NCBI GenBank assembly: GCA_023662725.1
Contig: JAMPIL010000001.1
Span: 887,618 to 951,617, forward strand
Source: Ruminococcus flavefaciens
GTDB lineage: Bacteria; Bacillota; Clostridia; Oscillospirales; Ruminococcaceae
Reading direction: 5' to 3'
Length of the DNA stretch: 64,000 bases
Both the position numbers and the translations under genes were made by a program. The notes under the pieces were generated by a model. The model had not been told where the DNA came from. It searched no databases and saw only the letters and a list, made by a program, of their open reading frames with translations. Below are positions 51,429-59,903 of the stretch, in pieces. Within the stretch, counting starts at the first letter, position 1. Every line of letters begins with the position of its first letter.

Positions 51429-52487
51429 TTGGAAAAAATAGATATTCTCAGTCTCAGTCTTGAGGAATTGGAAAATATTCTTATTGAAAACGGAGAGAAG
51501 AAATTCCGTGCAAAACAGATTTTTCAGTGGCTTCATGTCAAAAGAGTCTTTGATTTCAGCAAGATGACTGATATATCTGTCCAATTGAGACAGAGTTTAA
51601 ATGAAATTTTTTGTATAAAAGGACTATTTGTGCAAAAAAAGCTTGAATCTGCTATAGATAATACGGTAAAATATCTTTATAGACTTCCGGACGGTAATTA
51701 TGTTGAAACAGTTTTGATGGAATACAATTACGGCAGAAGTATCTGCGTCTCAACTCAGGTCGGCTGTAAAATGGGATGCCGTTTCTGTGCTTCTGCAATC
51801 GCCGGGTATATTCGTGACCTTGAACCGTCTGAAATACTTATGCAGATTTATGAAACGGAAAAGGATACCGGAGTAAGAGTATCCGGAGTTGTTCTTATGG
51901 GAATCGGCGAGCCGCTTGATAACTTTGCCAATGTTATGAGGTTTCTGAGTCTGCTTTCAGATAAAAATGGAAATAATTTAAGTCTGCGGCACGTTTCGCT
52001 TTCTACCTGCGGAATCGTTCCGAAGATCTATGAGCTTGCAGATAAGAAGCTTCAGCTTACTCTGTCTGTTTCGCTTCATAGTCCGGATAACGACAAAAGA
52101 AGTGAAATAATGCCCGTGAACCGAACATATAATATAGACAAGCTTATTGAAGCTTGCCGTGTGTATATTGAAAAAACAGGACGGCGTATAACCTTTGAAT
52201 ATGCTGTTATAGATAATGTTAATTCCGCTGAAAAAGACGCAGACAAACTTGCAGATCTGCTGCGTGGGCTGAATTGCCATGTAAATCTGATACCTGTAAA
52301 TCAGGTAAAAGAGAGGAATTATAAAACTGCCGCTTCCGGCGTTGCACAGTTTGCAAAGAGACTTGAAAAACGTGGAATAAACGCTACGGTAAGAAGGACT
52401 CTCGGAAGCGATATAGAGGCGGCTTGCGGTCAATTAAGACGTGACGCTGTAAAACAACAAAACGGATGCGGAGGTGCGGAGGATTGA
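51429..52487 (+). CDS. rlmN: 23S rRNA / tRNA adenine-C2 methyltransferase RlmN
   Basis: 352 residues from TTG 51429. Radical SAM CX3CX2C in GCKMGCRFCASAIAGY (about 115), GIGEPLDN, and the C-terminal methyl-carrying Cys in EAACGQLR. Methylates A2503 of 23S rRNA. The Gly/Asp tail overlaps the next ribosome site. Confidence 0.96.
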   Translation: MEKIDILSLSLEELENILIENGEKKFRAKQIFQWLHVKRVFDFSKMTDISVQLRQSLNEIFCIKGLFVQKKLESAIDNTVKYLYRLPDGNYVETVLMEYNYGRSICVSTQVGCKMGCRFCASAIAGYIRDLEPSEILMQIYETEKDTGVRVSGVVLMGIGEPLDNFANVMRFLSLLSDKNGNNLSLRHVSLSTCGIVPKIYELADKKLQLTLSVSLHSPDNDKRSEIMPVNRTYNIDKLIEACRVYIEKTGRRITFEYAVIDNVNSAEKDADKLADLLRGLNCHVNLIPVNQVKERNYKTAASGVAQFAKRLEKRGINATVRRTLGSDIEAACGQLRRDAVKQQNGCGGAED

Positions 52488-53209
52488 GATATAGATTCGG
52501 AACGGATATCGGTCTTAAACGTGACGAAAATCAGGACGCAGTTAGATGCGAATATTTCGGACATAATATTCTTGCCGTTGTTTGTGACGGTATGGGCGGC
52601 GAACGTGCTGGAAAAGAAGCAAGCTGCGTTGCTATAGAGGAATTTTTTCAGAGGTTTTCTGCCGGATATTCCGAAAATCTTGATGACGAGGCTATAAGAA
52701 AGCTGCTCATTTCATCTGTTTCAGCCGCAAATTCCGTTATTTACACAAGAGCAAGGCTCGATTTTAAGAATTTCGGAATGGGAACAACCTGCGTTGCCGC
52801 ATTTATCAACCAAAAGTCCGTATTCATAGTTAATGTCGGTGACAGCAGAGCTTATCTCGTTACAGACCGTGAGCTTATGAAGATCACCAACGATCACAAT
52901 GTTGCAGCTCTGCTTTATGAGCAGGGAAAAATTACTGCCGAAGAAATGGAAGTTCATCCGCAGAAACATATGCTGGTTAAGGCTGTTGGAGTGGAAAAAA
53001 CCGTTCTTCCGGATACATTTGTTCTTGATTATGAAAATAAAATAAGTCTGTTGCTCTGTTCCGATGGACTTTCGGGATATTGCAGCGATGATGAAATATA
53101 CAGCGTTATCCTTAATTCAACTTTCGATAACGTTGCCGACGAACTGATTCAGCTCGCTCTTAGCAAGGGCGGAAGAGATAATGTAACTGTTGCAGTTATA
53201 TCAGATTAA
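52484..53209 (+). CDS. prpC: PP2C phosphatase partner of PrkC
   Basis: 241 residues from TTG 52484, chosen because GGAGG is nine bases upstream and it gives the usual start MRYRFGTDIGLKRDENQD; the ATG at 52466 precedes that site. Metal motifs VVCDGMGGERAG, VGDSRAYLV, LCSDGLS and GRDNVTVAVI. It reverses phosphorylation by the kinase encoded 15 bases downstream. Overlaps rlmN by four bases. Confidence 0.95.
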   Translation: MRYRFGTDIGLKRDENQDAVRCEYFGHNILAVVCDGMGGERAGKEASCVAIEEFFQRFSAGYSENLDDEAIRKLLISSVSAANSVIYTRARLDFKNFGMGTTCVAAFINQKSVFIVNVGDSRAYLVTDRELMKITNDHNVAALLYEQGKITAEEMEVHPQKHMLVKAVGVEKTVLPDTFVLDYENKISLLLCSDGLSGYCSDDEIYSVILNSTFDNVADELIQLALSKGGRDNVTVAVISD

Positions 53210-53224
53210 TTCAGGAGGATTGGT

Positions 53225-55543
53225 ATGGATAAAAACATTGGCAAAAAACTCGATGGAAGATACGAAATAACCGAACTTATCGGAGTAGGCGGAATGGCGG
53301 AAGTTTATAAAGGAATTGATGTTATCGATAACAAAACCGTCGCAATTAAAATTCTTAAAAAAGAATATGCCGAAAATGAAGAATTTCTTCGCCGTTTCAG
53401 AAATGAATCAAAGGCTATTGCCGTTCTTTCTCATCCTAATATCGTAAGAATTTACGACGTGGGTTTTTCCGAAAAAATTCAATATATCGTTATGGAATAT
53501 ATTGACGGTATAACCTTGAAAGAGTATATCGAAGAGGAAAAGGTTTTAACCTGGAAAGATACGGTTCACTTCGTTATCCAGATTTTAAGAGCACTTCAGC
53601 ACGCTCATGATAAGGGTATCGTTCACCGTGATATAAAGCCGCAGAATATTATGATGTTCACCGACGGCACTATCAAGGTAATGGATTTCGGAATTGCCAA
53701 ATTTGCAAGAGAAGACGGCAAAACTGCTACCGATCAGGCTATAGGAAGCGTTCATTATATCAGTCCTGAACAGGCAAGCGGAAGCGTTACAGACGCTAAA
53801 AGCGATATTTATTCCGTCGGAGCTATGATGTATGAAATGCTCACCGGAAGGAAACCTTTTGACAGCGATAATCCCGTAGCTATAGCTGTTATGCATATGC
53901 ATGACATTCCGGAAAGACCAAGAGCAATAAACCTCGATATCCCGGACGGACTTGAAGAGATAGTTTTAAGAGCAATGGAAAAAGCTCCGGAGGACAGATA
54001 TCAGTCTACCGCAGAGATGATAAAGGATATCGAAAAGTTTAAATCCAATCCGCTGATAACGTTTGGTTATTATCAGGAGGAAGCCGATAGTTCTAATGAA
54101 GATACACTGAATTTTGCTGCACCTCCAAACAACGAGGTACAGCTTGAAACTCCCGTTGCCGAACCTGAAAGGGTCATGGCAGGAAATGCGCCTGTTTATG
54201 CGAATCAGGCTCCGGTCTATCCGCAGAATATGCAAGGCTATGGCAACCAGCCTGCACCGGCTTACGATAATTATTACGATGAAGATGATGAAGAAGAGGA
54301 AGAACGGTCATCGCTTGTTATTCCTGTACTTACTGCCGTTGTGGTTGTTGTAATTATAGTTGCTGTAATATTTGTTGCAACGCTTCTCAGTGGTCTTTTA
54401 AAGGGCAGTGGCAAAAAGAACGATTTCACTATGCCCGACTTTATTGGAAAAGATTACAACGAGGCTGTAAGCGAATACGGCAACAATATTAAATTTGAGG
54501 TCATCGGTTCTGAATACAGTGAGTATGATGAAAACGCTATTATCGAACAGAGTATCGAACCTGATACAGAATTCAATAAGGGCGATACCCTTAAGGTTAA
54601 AATAAGCAAGGGAATGGAAACAACGGAAGTTCCCAACTGTGTTGATATGAATCAGGAAATGGCTAAAGATGTGCTTAATCAGCGAGGGCTTAAGCCGGAA
54701 ATAAAACAATCAACCGATCGTAAAGTCAAAAAGGGATACGTTATAAAAACCGAGCCCCAAGAAGGAACTTCAGTTCATAAGGGCTCTACGGTTATCCTTT
54801 ATGTAAGTATGGGCGCAAACCTTGACCAGATAGTTGTTAAGGATTATACTGGTAAGGATATTGAAGACGCTGTGGATATTGCAGAATATGACGGACTTAA
54901 AGTTATAACAGCTACGAAGCATTCCTATGAAAAAGAAGGCATTGTTGTTGAACAGAGCATCAAAAAGGGCGAAAAAGTTGATGCCGAAACAGAGATCACT
55001 CTTTATTTCAGCGACGGAATTGCTCCTGACGGCGAGATTCCTTTCACAATTCCGTTTCCCTCAGATGCTAACGGAAGATTCGTTATCGACTTTGTTATTG
55101 TAGGAGAAGACGGAAAGACGAATACCGTAAGTACACCTACCTTACTCGTTCCCGAACAGGGATCTGTCGAGCAGGTTATCCAGGGTTCCGGTGAAAATGT
55201 ACGTGTTTCGGTAATGCTCACAAATCTTAATAATAATGCAAGAGCGACTATCGGAACTTATTATTTCAATTTCGCTACAGAAAGCATCGTAACGCAGAGT
55301 GAAGATATATATGGTGCGTTTAACGCTGTAGGAGGATTCCCGGAGCCGGAAACTGAACCGACTACGGAAGAGCCGACTCCTGAACCTACGCCTGAACCGA
55401 CTCCCGAACCCTCTACAAATGATTATCAGCCAGGAGTTAACGGCGAATACGATTTGTACGGAAACTGGGTATACTATCAGCCCGGCATAAATGGAGACTG
55501 GCAGACTCAGGATGACGGTCAGACTGTATGGGTATGGTTCTGA
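53225..55543 (+). CDS. prkC: PASTA-domain Ser/Thr protein kinase
   Basis: 772 residues. Kinase domain 10-275 (GVGGMAEVYKG, VHRDIKPQNIM, VMDFGIAKF), a Pro/Tyr/Asp-rich juxtamembrane linker to about 358, a membrane helix (about 360-390), three PASTA repeats (about 400-600), then an extra extracellular region: a beta domain, a TPEPTPEPTPEP linker and a Trp/Tyr-rich tail with YQPGVNG and YQPGING. It senses muropeptides or wall stress. Only three PASTA repeats; the tail is beyond the usual family end. Likely targets include the IreB-like protein at 28308. Confidence 0.95.
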   Translation: MDKNIGKKLDGRYEITELIGVGGMAEVYKGIDVIDNKTVAIKILKKEYAENEEFLRRFRNESKAIAVLSHPNIVRIYDVGFSEKIQYIVMEYIDGITLKEYIEEEKVLTWKDTVHFVIQILRALQHAHDKGIVHRDIKPQNIMMFTDGTIKVMDFGIAKFAREDGKTATDQAIGSVHYISPEQASGSVTDAKSDIYSVGAMMYEMLTGRKPFDSDNPVAIAVMHMHDIPERPRAINLDIPDGLEEIVLRAMEKAPEDRYQSTAEMIKDIEKFKSNPLITFGYYQEEADSSNEDTLNFAAPPNNEVQLETPVAEPERVMAGNAPVYANQAPVYPQNMQGYGNQPAPAYDNYYDEDDEEEEERSSLVIPVLTAVVVVVIIVAVIFVATLLSGLLKGSGKKNDFTMPDFIGKDYNEAVSEYGNNIKFEVIGSEYSEYDENAIIEQSIEPDTEFNKGDTLKVKISKGMETTEVPNCVDMNQEMAKDVLNQRGLKPEIKQSTDRKVKKGYVIKTEPQEGTSVHKGSTVILYVSMGANLDQIVVKDYTGKDIEDAVDIAEYDGLKVITATKHSYEKEGIVVEQSIKKGEKVDAETEITLYFSDGIAPDGEIPFTIPFPSDANGRFVIDFVIVGEDGKTNTVSTPTLLVPEQGSVEQVIQGSGENVRVSVMLTNLNNNARATIGTYYFNFATESIVTQSEDIYGAFNAVGGFPEPETEPTTEEPTPEPTPEPTPEPSTNDYQPGVNGEYDLYGNWVYYQPGINGDWQTQDDGQTVWVWF

Positions 55544-56421
55544 TGAAGAGCAGTATTCAAAGCGGGATAATAACAAAATGCTTAGGGGGACTCTATACTG
55601 TAGAGTCCCCTGACGGTATATTTGAATGCAAGGCAAGAGGAATTTTCCGCAACAGAGGTATAAGCCCGTGCGTGGGCGATAACGTTAAGCTTGAAGACGG
55701 TGTTATAACCGAGATCGGCGAGCGAAAAAACTCTATAATAAGACCACCTCTTGCAAATCTCGATCAGCTTGTTTTTGTGGTGTCAACCTGCGAACCAGCG
55801 CCGAATTATCTCATTCTTGATAAATTTATTGCAATTGCCGAATATAAGGGGATTCGTCCGGTTGTTGCCGTTACGAAAACCGATCTTGGCGACAGTTCTG
55901 AAATTTGTGATATTTATGGAAAAATAGGAATTGATATTGTTGAAATCGACTATGGCAAAGAGAGTTCTGTTGAAGCTGTAAGAGAGATTCTTTCAGGAAA
56001 AATAAGCGCATTCACAGGCAATTCAGGAGCAGGAAAATCGACTCTTCTCAATGCAATAGACTCTTCGCTCAATATTCCGACCGCTGAAATAAGCCGAAAA
56101 CTCGGAAGAGGCAGACACACAACACGTCATGCAGAACTTTATAAGCTTAACGGAGGAGGATATATTGCTGATACTCCCGGTTTTTCAACATTTGAAACGA
56201 ATCGTTATGATATCATCCGCAAAGAAGAACTCGCCGGTTGTTTTCGTGAAATGGATGATTATGTTGATAACTGCCGATTTAAGGACTGTTCGCATACCTG
56301 CGAAAAAGGGTGTGCCGTTATAGAAGCGGTTCAGGGCGGAGCTATTTCGCAGAGCCGTCATGAAAGCTACTGCGCTATGTACGATGAAGCAAAGCAGATC
56401 AAGGAGTGGGAGCTGAAATGA
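55543..56421 (+). CDS. rsgA: Ribosome small-subunit GTPase RsgA
   Basis: 292 residues; ATG 55543 overlaps the prkC stop (TGATG). OB domain, circularly permuted GTPase with G4 TKTDL, G1 FTGNSGAGKSTLLNA and G3 DTPGF, then a C-terminal zinc knuckle (CRFKDCSHTCEKGC). Helps mature 30S subunits and is a known PrkC substrate in Bacillus. A perfect 10-bp hairpin lies within codons 15-23. Confidence 0.96.
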   Translation: MKSSIQSGIITKCLGGLYTVESPDGIFECKARGIFRNRGISPCVGDNVKLEDGVITEIGERKNSIIRPPLANLDQLVFVVSTCEPAPNYLILDKFIAIAEYKGIRPVVAVTKTDLGDSSEICDIYGKIGIDIVEIDYGKESSVEAVREILSGKISAFTGNSGAGKSTLLNAIDSSLNIPTAEISRKLGRGRHTTRHAELYKLNGGGYIADTPGFSTFETNRYDIIRKEELAGCFREMDDYVDNCRFKDCSHTCEKGCAVIEAVQGGAISQSRHESYCAMYDEAKQIKEWELK

Positions 56422-57038
56422 ATACTTACAGAATTTTTGCCGGAGGGGATTTTCAGGTTTCAGAAACATTGAAAATCGGTTCGCAGGATATTATAATGTG
56501 CGCCGACAAGGGACTGAATCATGCGAAAAGCCTGAATATTACTCCGGATATAGTAGTTGGCGATTTCGATTCGTATAGGGAAAAGCTTCCGGAAAATACT
56601 GAGATTTTTTACAGTATCCCCGAAAAAGACGATACCGATACTATGCTTGCAGTGAAAATCGCTCTTGAAAGGAGAGCTGAAAAAATAATTATCCACGGTG
56701 CTCTCGGCGGACGTTTTGATCATGCCTTTGCCAATATCCAGACACTTGTTTATATTCACAAACAGGGATGCGAAGCTGAAATTGCCGACTGCGGCAATGT
56801 AATGACGGTCTGTGGCGAGGGGGAGCATTCCTTTGAACTGTGGAACGATTGGTACTTCTCGGTTTTTGCGCTTACAGAAAAGCTTGAGATAGAGAGTATG
56901 AGCGGAGTTAAATATCCTTTGGAAAATTACTGCATGACAAACAGCTTTCCTCTTGGAGTAAGCAACGAGATAACCGCAAGCAAGGCTTTACTTAAAATAC
57001 GCAGCGGAACAGCTCTTGTCGTTCGTTCAAAAATGTGA
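56418..57038 (+). CDS. thiN: Thiamine diphosphokinase
   Basis: 206 residues from ATG 56418 (ATGA overlap with rsgA). IMCADKGLNHA, VVGDFDS and the DTDTMLAVKIAL / GALGGRFDHAFANI blocks are characteristic. Makes thiamine diphosphate from thiamine and ATP. In Bacillus the order is prpC-prkC-rsgA-rpe-thiN-spoVM; rpe is missing here. Confidence 0.94.
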   Translation: MNTYRIFAGGDFQVSETLKIGSQDIIMCADKGLNHAKSLNITPDIVVGDFDSYREKLPENTEIFYSIPEKDDTDTMLAVKIALERRAEKIIIHGALGGRFDHAFANIQTLVYIHKQGCEAEIADCGNVMTVCGEGEHSFELWNDWYFSVFALTEKLEIESMSGVKYPLENYCMTNSFPLGVSNEITASKALLKIRSGTALVVRSKM

Positions 57039-57099
57039 AGTAACATTTTCTTGATAGCTGAATATAATGAGGTATATTCAGTTGAAGGAGGGACTACAT

Positions 57100-57183
57100 A
57101 TGAAGGTTGTAGTAATAAGAAGTCCGAAATTTATATCAGGGATATTGAGAGTTATTTTCAGAATAAAAAAGGAAGAAGAATAA
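57100..57183 (+). CDS. spoVM: Stage V sporulation protein M, 27 residues
   Basis: MKVVVIRSPKFISGIL, then a basic-hydrophobic helix and a KKEEE tail. Size, the xxIxxPKFxxGIxR pattern and position right after thiN match SpoVM, the amphipathic helix that recognises the convex forespore membrane and anchors the SpoIVA coat base. A strong AAGGAGGG is seven bases upstream. Too short for most gene callers. A terminator follows within 60 bases. Confidence 0.88.
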   Translation: MKVVVIRSPKFISGILRVIFRIKKEEE

Positions 57184-57215
57184 ATCTGCGAAGAGTATAC
57201 ATATACTCTGCTTTC

Positions 57216-57248
57216 AGACTGTCACCAACAAGGCGGCAGTCTTTTTAT
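57216..57248 (+). terminator. Terminator after spoVM
   Basis: AGACTGTC / GGCAGTCT stem (one G-T pair) then CTTTTTATTTT. A small hairpin GAGTATA/TATACTC lies just before. Confidence 0.8.
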
Positions 57249-57281
57249 TTTGTTTTTTTTTATACATAAATCCTTCACCTC

Positions 57282-57310
57282 TTGCATTATTATTAATGAT
57301 ATGCTATAAT
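57282..57310 (+). promoter_or_regulatory. Promoter of the purA operon
   Basis: TTGCAT (57282-57287), 17-base spacer, TATAAT (57305-57310). The 110-base leader shows no purine riboswitch consensus. Confidence 0.8.
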
Positions 57311-57426
57311 AAATTGTAAGTGTGCAGTTTTGCATATTAATTCGGAATTTATTCTTGTTATCAACGCTATGATTTATTGATTCAAGAATATTTTCTTAAA
57401 TCATAATTATGAAAAGAGGAAAATAA

Positions 57427-58704
57427 ATGCCTGCTAATATTGTTGTCGGAACTCAGTGGGGAGACGAGGGAAAGGGAAAAATTATTGATATCCTTGCTTC
57501 CCGTGCAGATGTTGTTGTTCGTTCACAGGGCGGAAATAATGCCGGTCATACCGTTGTAAATAATGGCGAAGTTTATAAGCTTCACCTTATTCCATCCGGA
57601 ATTCTTTATCCGAATACGCTTTGTCTTATCGGTGCAGGAGTTGTTCTTGATCCTAAGGACTTTATCGGCGAACTCGATAGTCTTGCTGAAAGAGGAATCA
57701 AAACAGAAGGTCATCTCAAGGTTGATCCCCGTGCGCATATCGTTATGCCGTGGCACATCACTCTTGACGGTCTTTCAGAAACTTTCAGAGGCGGTAAGGA
57801 TATCGGTACAACAAAGCGTGGTATAGGTCCTACTTATATGGATAAATATGAACGCTGTGGAATCAGAATGTTCGATCTTGTAAATCCTGATGTGCTTGCT
57901 GAAAAAATTCAGGCTACAGGTAAGCTTAAAAATAAAATCATTACAGATGTTTACGGCGGAGAAGCTTTTGATCTCGACGCTGTTACGGCTGAATATATCG
58001 AATACGGAAAGAGACTTGCTCCTTATATGGACGATGTTTCCGTTCTTACTTTTGAAGCTCATAAGGCTGGAAAAACGATCATGTTCGAGGGCGCACAGGC
58101 TACACTTCTTGATATTGACTTTGGTACATATCCATATGTTACATCTTCCCATCCGCTTTCAGCAGGAGTCTGCGTAGGAACGGGAGTAGGACCTAAGGTT
58201 ATTACAAATATCATTGGCGTTGCCAAGGCTTACACAACTCGTGTCGGAAAAGGACCTTTCCCCACAGAGCTTGATGATGAGATCGGCGATCAGATCAGAA
58301 ATGTAGGCGGAGAATTCGGTACGACTACTGGCAGACCGAGAAGAACAGGCTGGTTTGACGCAGTTATAGTTCGCCATTCAGTAAGAGTAAACGGTCTTGA
58401 CAGCCTTGCTATAAACAAGCTGGATACTCTTTCTGGAATTGATACTCTTAAAATCTGCGTTGCATATAAAAAGCCCGATGGCGCTGTTATTGAACACTTC
58501 CCACCGGCACTTGAGGAACTTGCAGGATGCACCCCTGTTTACGAGGAGTTTGAAGGATTTAAGGAGGATATTTCTCAGTGCAAGAGCTTTGATGAACTTC
58601 CGGAAAATTGCCGCAAATATATTGCACGCCTGGAAGAACTTGTGGGATGTCATGTAAGCATGGTCGGCGTAGGTCCTGACAGAACTCAGATCATTGAAAG
58701 ATAA
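57427..58704 (+). CDS. purA: Adenylosuccinate synthetase
   Basis: 425 residues, full length. P-loop GTQWGDEGKGKIID at the N terminus, GGNNAGHTVV, TTKRGIGPTYMDKYERCGIR, and GRPRRTGWFDAV. First step from IMP to AMP. It is followed after two bases by a secreted dockerin protein gene. Confidence 0.97.
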   Translation: MPANIVVGTQWGDEGKGKIIDILASRADVVVRSQGGNNAGHTVVNNGEVYKLHLIPSGILYPNTLCLIGAGVVLDPKDFIGELDSLAERGIKTEGHLKVDPRAHIVMPWHITLDGLSETFRGGKDIGTTKRGIGPTYMDKYERCGIRMFDLVNPDVLAEKIQATGKLKNKIITDVYGGEAFDLDAVTAEYIEYGKRLAPYMDDVSVLTFEAHKAGKTIMFEGAQATLLDIDFGTYPYVTSSHPLSAGVCVGTGVGPKVITNIIGVAKAYTTRVGKGPFPTELDDEIGDQIRNVGGEFGTTTGRPRRTGWFDAVIVRHSVRVNGLDSLAINKLDTLSGIDTLKICVAYKKPDGAVIEHFPPALEELAGCTPVYEEFEGFKEDISQCKSFDELPENCRKYIARLEELVGCHVSMVGVGPDRTQIIER

Positions 58705-58706
58705 TT

Positions 58707-59903
58707 ATGAAACTGTTTAAGAAAATAGTTTCAGTTTTAGCTGCGCTGACCGTTATGTCAAGCGCAGCAGTTTCCTCTGTTTATGCAGTTGAAACTGACA
58801 CGAACATACGGTTTGCAAGTGATATTCAGTATAGTGCGTCCGGGAGTTTTTCAACACTCGATGAAGCTGCTGAATACCTTAGAGAACGAATCAAGCTTCG
58901 CAATGAAGCCGTGAATATTACTGTTCCGTATTCGTTTGATCAGGCATCTGATGTTCTGGTCGAGATTATGGATAAGGCTTTTGCTGAAACAGGAAACGGC
59001 AATGAGGGAGATTATATCCGATTTGGTATTCATGGATATGAATGTTCCTACAGCGGTGATTCTGCAAGAGTTACTTTTAATATCAGATTTTATTATTTTA
59101 CAACAGGCGAAGAGGAAAGGCTTGTCGATGAAAAAGTTGAAAGTATCCTTGAAGAGCTTGATCTGATAGGAAAATCAGACTATGAAAAAATAGGGATTAT
59201 TTATGATTATATCATAAATAATGTTTCTTATGCTTATGATTCTTCCGACGACGTGATTTTTTCTGCCTATAGTGCGCTTTTCAACGGTTCGGCTGTTTGT
59301 CAGGGGATAGCTCAGCTTTTTTATCGCTTGACAACGGAAGCAGGAATCTCCTGCCGGATTGTATCCGGAACGGCAAACGGCGGAAATCATGCATGGAATA
59401 TTGCTGAAATAAACGGAAAATACTATCTGCTCGATCCGACGTTTGATTTGTCTTATGGCGGAAGAGCAATGTATTATTTTCTTAGAGGTTCGGAAAATTT
59501 CGATGAACATAATAAAACTGCTCCTCACATTGCCGGTTCGGGAAAAGAGGATAATTATGCTTATGCGCCGAACTATACTTCGGCTGAATTTACAAAAAAA
59601 TATCCCATATCACAAATTGATTATGATCCGGAAAATGATAAGATCACCTATAGTACTGGTGATGTAAACGGCGATGGAATAGTTGACGGTATTGATGCAA
59701 CTCTTGTACTCAGGGCTTATACTCTGATTATTGCCGGTCAGAATTGTGATTTTAGTGATGAACAAATGGTTGCAGCTGATATTAATGGTGACAGTATTGT
59801 CGATGGAATAGACGCTACACATATTCTCAGGTATTACACGCTGCGTTTATCCGGATATGACCATTTGTCAATTGAAGAGTATCAAGAAACGTATTTGAGG
59901 TGA
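58707..59903 (+). CDS. Secreted dockerin protein with transglutaminase-like domain
   Basis: 398 residues. Signal peptide 1-27; a mixed N-terminal domain; a transglutaminase-like fold with triad Cys198 (GSAVCQGIAQ), His228 (GGNHAWN) and Asp243 (LLDPTFD); C-terminal dockerin with two well-kept calcium loops, GDVNGDGIVDGIDATL and ADINGDSIVDGIDATH. It should attach to a cohesin. The domain could act as a protease, cross-linker or inactive binder. The ribosome site is weak (GAAAG), so translation may depend on coupling to purA two bases upstream. Confidence 0.88.
   Translation: MKLFKKIVSVLAALTVMSSAAVSSVYAVETDTNIRFASDIQYSASGSFSTLDEAAEYLRERIKLRNEAVNITVPYSFDQASDVLVEIMDKAFAETGNGNEGDYIRFGIHGYECSYSGDSARVTFNIRFYYFTTGEEERLVDEKVESILEELDLIGKSDYEKIGIIYDYIINNVSYAYDSSDDVIFSAYSALFNGSAVCQGIAQLFYRLTTEAGISCRIVSGTANGGNHAWNIAEINGKYYLLDPTFDLSYGGRAMYYFLRGSENFDEHNKTAPHIAGSGKEDNYAYAPNYTSAEFTKKYPISQIDYDPENDKITYSTGDVNGDGIVDGIDATLVLRAYTLIIAGQNCDFSDEQMVAADINGDSIVDGIDATHILRYYTLRLSGYDHLSIEEYQETYLR

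Follow-up and report, generated by a model that had tools for sequence, protein, structure and literature searches.

A 27-codon gene for the sporulation peptide SpoVM follows thiN in the 64,000-nucleotide stretch of Ruminococcus flavefaciens DNA analysed here (the window), and the leader in front of it (57040–57092) is predicted to fold in a way that would keep the gene silent on read-through messages. Profile score, conservation and co-occurrence with SpoIVA establish 57100–57183 as spoVM; the peptide is an ordinary SpoVM of a kind already modelled, and NCBI's own model would name it. What is new beyond the known SpoVM family is the leader, which went unmentioned in the first-pass annotation of this DNA. 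With a little better than even confidence, we favor the view that it acts as a read-through lock: a putative promoter sits in the left arm of a hairpin, and modelling of the folds suggests that the gene's own transcript would be open and the read-through transcript closed. The features concerned, all on the forward strand, are these:

52466–53209, +, PP2C phosphatase gene, prpC type (PF13672)
53225–55543, +, PASTA-domain protein kinase gene, prkC type (PF00069, PF03793)
55528–56421, +, rsgA GTPase gene (PF03193)
56418–57038, +, thiN, thiamine pyrophosphokinase (TPK domains PF04263, PF04265), likely source of read-through
57043–57044, +, AC of the -35-like element, SigK type, within GTAAC at 57040–57044
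57046–57052, +, anti-Shine-Dalgarno stretch UUUUCUU, in the promoter spacer; predicted partner 57086–57092
57055–57084, +, central hairpin, arms 57055–57066 and 57073–57084, loop 57067–57072, from the fold and from covariation in relatives
57060–57068, +, -10-like box GAATATAAT; predicted transcription start near 57075
57085–57091, +, Shine-Dalgarno site AAGGAGG, from sequence (AAGGAGGG spans 57085–57092)
57100–57183, +, spoVM, 27 codons plus TAA, product MKVVVIRSPKFISGILRVIFRIKKEEE, matching NF033436
57219–57246, +, terminator-like stem and T tract 3' of spoVM, from a consensus scan and weak alone

The spoVM gene, its distribution and its neighbors

The first-pass annotation had called 57100–57183 spoVM and proposed a profile search as a check. 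That search gives the window peptide 52.7 bits against the NCBIfam SpoVM equivalog NF033436 (SpoVM_broad; cut-off 31), and the functional residues, the position downstream of thiN and the co-occurrence with SpoIVA agree with the assignment. Lys2, Ile6, Pro9 and Ile15 of SpoVM have been given functional roles (PMC5607322, in part); all four are in the window peptide, and Pro9 is retained in 124 of 130 family peptides. The SpoVM structure 2MVH in the PDB aligns with residues 1–20 (E 0.23), and the window's own genome carries a single copy of the gene. A chance open frame would fit the absence of any match in a Pfam search with the window peptide and its score of 12.7 against the Bacillus-type model NF011327, below the cut-off of 55. 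It is refuted by the NF033436 score, by purifying selection (pS 0.72, near saturation, and pN 0.12 against 37 named relatives, namely those among loci L134–L174 whose peptide reaches at least 40 bits), by a SpoVM match in every one of the 33 good genomes of the genus (58 of all 60) and by the co-occurrence with SpoIVA, and we give it a vanishingly small probability. Conservation in relatives and similarity to SpoVM profiles, the two points on which the original call had been staked, are thus both found. The closest relative, L134, differs from the window spoVM by only three changes, all synonymous, and so has an identical peptide, next to a ThiN that is 91% identical.

Across the 148 genomes of the family, a SpoVM profile match at E 0.01 is present in 131, of which 111 lie over the cut-off, and SpoIVA is present in 135. 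The two are found together in 129 genomes and are both missing from 11, with SpoVM alone in 2 and SpoIVA alone in 6, which makes 140 concordant and 8 discordant genomes (Fisher p 7e-11, with genomes treated as unrelated). The window's own genome encodes SpoIVA at C3:15975-17438 (706 bits). SpoVM is described as an amphipathic helix that inserts into the forespore membrane, with a preference for positive curvature, and that recruits SpoIVA (PMC7911427, in part), and by analogy with known SpoVM the window peptide probably serves as a curvature-sensing anchor for SpoIVA on the forespore. A passage of Galperin 2012 (PMC3533761) asks if the job of SpoVM is the same in clostridia, a question on which the joint presence and absence of the two genes bears. 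Of the 129 genomes that have both genes, 31 carry spoVM within 8 kb of spoIVA on one contig (L126, L130 and L043 are examples). In L126, the sole interval examined of these 31, a SipL-domain gene lies between them, an arrangement that would group three basement-coat genes. Of 156 genomes in a class-wide survey, 5, including that of the window, had an NF033436 match over the cut-off, and class peptides that resemble SpoVM by eye fell under it; given the 111 of 148 genomes in the family, the model may under-detect SpoVM outside it.

The acidic EEE tail noted in the first-pass annotation is really present, but it is not unusual. At least two acidic residues from position 23 on occur in 75 of the 130 family peptides and in none of 25 clean peptides taken from the rest of the class, where many stop at residue 23–24 (this set had 28 loci, three of them without a clean peptide by the script's rule). 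The acidic tail is a lineage trait, common in the family.

The gene order described earlier also holds up, with genes for a PP2C phosphatase, a PASTA kinase, rsgA, thiN and spoVM in succession and, as had been noted, no rpe in the cluster; the one rpe match of the genome is on contig C33. The end of thiN and the start of spoVM are 61 nt apart, and purA follows at 57427. A SpoVM-like peptide accompanies thiN in 58 of 80 named ThiN relatives, always downstream of it and on its strand. In 3 of the other 22 the sequence ends within 161 bases past thiN, and in the remaining 19 no SpoVM-like peptide was found in the at least 1815 bases searched past thiN. A palindrome, GAGTATACATATACTC, lies just past the spoVM stop at 57193–57208; it is in L134 too and by eye absent from the other relatives printed. 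Further on, 58707–59903 encodes a secreted transglutaminase-like protein whose C-terminal end looks dockerin-like by eye.

Promoter-like element and hairpin in the leader

The promoter-like element upstream of spoVM reads AC-N15-GAATATAAT, with a SigK-like -35. Its box is exact in 46 of the 58 named relatives with a downstream spoVM and in 3 of 1160 shuffles, or, allowing one mismatch, in 51 of 58 and 46 of 1160; among the 38 loci that have the exact box, of which the window is one, 32 have xAC 15 nt before it. For the wider family we used 130 loci, drawn from the 131 matching genomes with G112 left out and with the window itself as L007. The pattern AC-Nk-[GT][ACG]ATANNNT occurs in them with k=15 in 22 loci and k=16 in 30, and with 0–6 loci at each other spacing from k 10 to 21. 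One or other of the two preferred spacings is therefore present in 52 of 130 loci, as against 1.1% in shuffles, and was not found in 78.

Promoters of SigE and SigK in Clostridioides difficile have similar -10 boxes and differ at -35, where SigE promoters carry ATA and SigK promoters AC; CATATAAT is the -10 box of one SigK promoter (PMC3789822, in part). By motif alone, the spoVM promoter looks SigK-type and that of sipL in the same genome, which has ATA at the corresponding -35 place, looks SigE-type. The AC at -35 thus suggests SigK for spoVM rather than the SigE reported for C. difficile. A SigA promoter was also considered, as the window element matches it at 10 of 12 positions; the AC-N15/16 spacing across the family speaks for a mother-cell sigma factor. 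A genome-wide search for AAC-N15-GAATATNAT returned 4 places against 5 for the reversed control, hence no excess, and by eye no sporulation gene lies within 900 bases downstream of the other three, so we draw no regulon from it.

This promoter-like element falls within a hairpin: it is contained in one arm, and the opposite arm extends into the ribosome-binding site. The long leader of the window folds at -19.7 kcal/mol (z -3.76, with none of 200 shuffles as good), while the short leader, which starts seven bases past the box, reaches -5.4 (z -1.61); five other leaders, picked by eye, gave z-scores of -3.16 to -6.53. The Shine-Dalgarno site is predicted to be unpaired 22% of the time in the long leader and 72% in the short one. 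A search of Rfam returned one match, far under the gathering score (20.1 against 70).

The hairpin could instead be a transcript-end or RNase processing element for the thiN mRNA that touches spoVM secondarily, and its place between thiN and spoVM in the window and in 37 named relatives would suit that role. No T run follows the hairpin, however, and a consensus scan found no terminator-like site in the thiN–spoVM interval (over 55400–57500 it found 2, with 1.5 expected in shuffles); the minimum-energy pairing, moreover, reaches into the Shine-Dalgarno site. We regard this role as very improbable.

We return to the read-through lock. Because spoVM stands behind vegetative housekeeping genes in an interval where no terminator-like site was found, mRNA reading through into it would be expected. 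On such mRNA, the promoter-spacer sequence and the -10 arm would pair with the stretch that runs into the Shine-Dalgarno site and hide it. The putative mother-cell sigma promoter (-35 AC, -10 box) lies inside that left arm, and a transcript starting near 57075 would lack the arm and expose the site. The same DNA would then keep SpoVM off in vegetative cells and turn it on in the sporulating mother cell, with kinase-rsgA-thiN read-through mRNA translationally locked for spoVM and sporulation transcripts alone being translated. One possible reason for such a lock is that the peptide is membrane-active, and leaky synthesis would perhaps be costly. We put forward more tentatively, at somewhat under even chances, the fuller proposal of a two-layer developmental lock, in which one stretch is at once the spacer of a SigK-type promoter and the anti-Shine-Dalgarno strand, vegetative read-through is silent and production falls late in the mother cell. 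A different use of the same structure would be as a tunable translational brake that the functional transcript retains and that a factor or temperature might open. A small hairpin at the sigG ribosome-binding site damps sigG 2–4 fold (PMC5942855, in part), which lends the idea some plausibility. With the -10-like box in the left arm, though, the promoter transcript should be without that arm, and we think a brake improbable.

Pairing of the two arms in relatives and beyond

A more serious competitor to the lock is a plain spoVM with its own sporulation promoter, whose palindromic or pyrimidine-rich spacer would give rise to the hairpin as a by-product with no effect on translation. The window itself offers this reading some comfort: the pairing of 57046–57052 with 57086–57092 is in the minimum-energy fold but not in the centroid structure, which keeps the central hairpin and loses the pairing at the ribosome-binding site. 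In the 38 loci with an exact box (the window and 37 relatives), the ribosome-binding site is on average 0.26 unpaired in the long leader, 0.78 in the short one and 0.52 when the left flank is shuffled (p 5.7e-8 and 8.5e-8 for the comparisons), and this opening upon shuffling of the left flank argues against a by-product. The values are 0.29, 0.74 and 0.52 in 19 clusters at below 80% identity (p 1.9e-5 and 8.2e-5), and 31%, 72% and 50% in the 52 loci with at most one mismatch in the box (the window and 51 named relatives). Closure exceeds that of 95% of left-flank shuffles in 21 of the 38 loci and 9 of the 19 clusters, and 31 of the 38 fold better than 95% of shuffles. Closure is absent from L134, the closest relative, in which the site is 0.99 unpaired in the long leader (0.82 long against 0.80 short in the 38-locus comparison), and likewise from L156; both loci favor the by-product reading.

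Swapping arms between loci speaks in the other direction. In the 19 clusters, native arms pair at -10.68 kcal/mol and swapped arms at -7.98 (p 5e-5, the floor of 20000 permutations); the floor is reached with 19, 18 and 11 clusters, and p is 1e-4 with 9 clusters at below 55% identity. The mirror control (p 0.21) and the controls at coding 27–52 (0.63), coding 53–78 (0.17), the end of thiN (0.82) and after the stop (0.98) are non-significant, and that at coding 1–26 is borderline (0.058). At the genus level these controls speak against shared ancestry alone as the cause of arm pairing, the one borderline value notwithstanding.

Covariation also weighs against a by-product. A first alignment of 21 rows, A1, misplaced the right arm of the window, so the alignment used for pair counts, A2, omits the window; it holds 17 of the 38 exact-box loci. 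The 21 left out comprise, besides the window, L134 and L156 (no closure), L148 and L164 (poor central stem), L138, L142, L152–L155 and L169–L173 (loop or arm of other length or register) and near-duplicates, and this choice of rows, by omitting badly fitting loci, favors the stem. In A2, 95.3% of the cells in the named stem are paired (88.4% in shuffles), 10 cells differ on both sides where shuffles have 2.7, and covariation scores 0.246 where shuffles score 0.099 (0 of 500 shuffles in each case; slid versions of the stem score 0.004–0.104). Of the 10 pairs, 3 show a double change, a count that is not exceptional (146 of 500 shuffles). At one pair G-C becomes A-U or U-A, and at the next C-G becomes G-C or A-U. 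RNAalifold gives 9 pairs, 3 of them with double changes. Throughout the A2 rows the -10 box is invariant and its partner strand variable, as would be expected if the left arm answers both to a sigma factor and to the structure.

The effect is weak family-wide, which again suits a by-product. Closed loci number 21 of 130 where 6.5 are expected, with 5 in the opposite tail. In the 52 family loci with the promoter pattern, the ribosome-binding site is 0.38 unpaired in the long leader, 0.56 in the short and 0.45 after shuffling (p 2.7e-5 and 0.02). Arm swapping over 46 family clusters gives p 5e-5 with a mirror control at 0.055 and a coding control at 0.0099; with these control values, base composition confounds the family-level swap, and the controls there do not speak against shared ancestry. 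In the rest of the class, a single locus of 25 closes. As modelled, the lock stands out strongly in the named Ruminococcus relatives, occurs patchily in the family and is not a general device, and other family members may have rebuilt it with unrelated stems (L029, L030 and L060, for example). Taking both sides together, we consider a by-product rather unlikely, though it deserves to be kept in mind alongside the read-through lock that we prefer.

Sporulation genes of the host and known systems

Judged from gene content, sporulation of the host is plausible. Its genome has SpoIVA and SipL, whose genes adjoin on C3, and SpoIIR over the cut-off. SigE scores over one cut-off (360.5 against 339) and just under another (346.8 against 348.6), a SigG-like protein falls under both of its cut-offs (362.9 against 372 and 348.1 against 457), and a SigF-like protein falls well under (196 against 321). 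Two Spo0A-type proteins, at C11:256859 and C3:2501, are both over the cut-off of 200 (226.6 and 213.6). The presence of spoIIR sets this genome apart from Ruminococcus albus 7, which is listed as lacking spoIIR, among others, in part of Galperin 2012 (PMC3533761).

The sigK gene is split between C33:107992-108330 (L265, L268) and C11:654735-655085 (L266, L269), which cover profile positions 3–129 and 109–226 and share a 10-base core at the break, and a large serine recombinase gene (PF00239, PF07508) ends right at the C-terminal piece. The arrangement resembles the skin element of B. subtilis and C. difficile; a literature search on skin element, sigK and Ruminococcus found none. The C-terminal piece lies 650 kb inside a 1.4 Mb contig, which implies a very large excised segment, a rearranged chromosome or a wrong assembly.

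If the leader works as predicted, it would show how a membrane-active peptide can be encoded behind housekeeping genes without harm, with one short stretch serving as both promoter spacer and translational lock, and it would point to SigK timing, instead of SigE timing, for SpoVM in gut Clostridia. A literature search, mostly of open papers and in some cases judged by title, found no such leader described at spoVM. The peptide itself is like SpoVM of Bacillus subtilis (PDB 2MVH) and C. difficile in length, in K2, I6, P9 and I15, in its basic amphipathic layout and in having its partner SpoIVA in the same genome, and differs from them in its acidic tail. SipL is present, as in C. difficile and unlike in Bacilli. 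The spoVM gene of C. difficile is SigE-dependent, whereas the promoter-like element here is of the AC (SigK) type, and SpoVM is largely dispensable in that species (PMC5607322, in part).

The logic of the leader has two likenesses elsewhere. In late genes of phage T4, such as the lysozyme gene e, an internal late promoter lies inside a hairpin at the ribosome-binding site, and the early long mRNA is locked while the late short mRNA is open; that is a phage with another sigma factor, and the likeness lies in the logic. Closer to sporulation is sigG (spoIIIG) of B. subtilis, for which a large hairpin in read-through mRNA has been proposed to block translation; transcripts that start at the sigG promoter itself are unable to form it (PMC5942855, in part). 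There, as in the spoVM leader, the ribosome-binding site is predicted to be hidden in the long mRNA and free in the short one. The gene, the compartment and the lineage are different, and here the promoter spacer carries the anti-Shine-Dalgarno stretch and the upstream genes are housekeeping rather than sporulation genes. The read-through lock, if true, would carry the principle proposed for sigG over to a coat gene of gut Clostridia.
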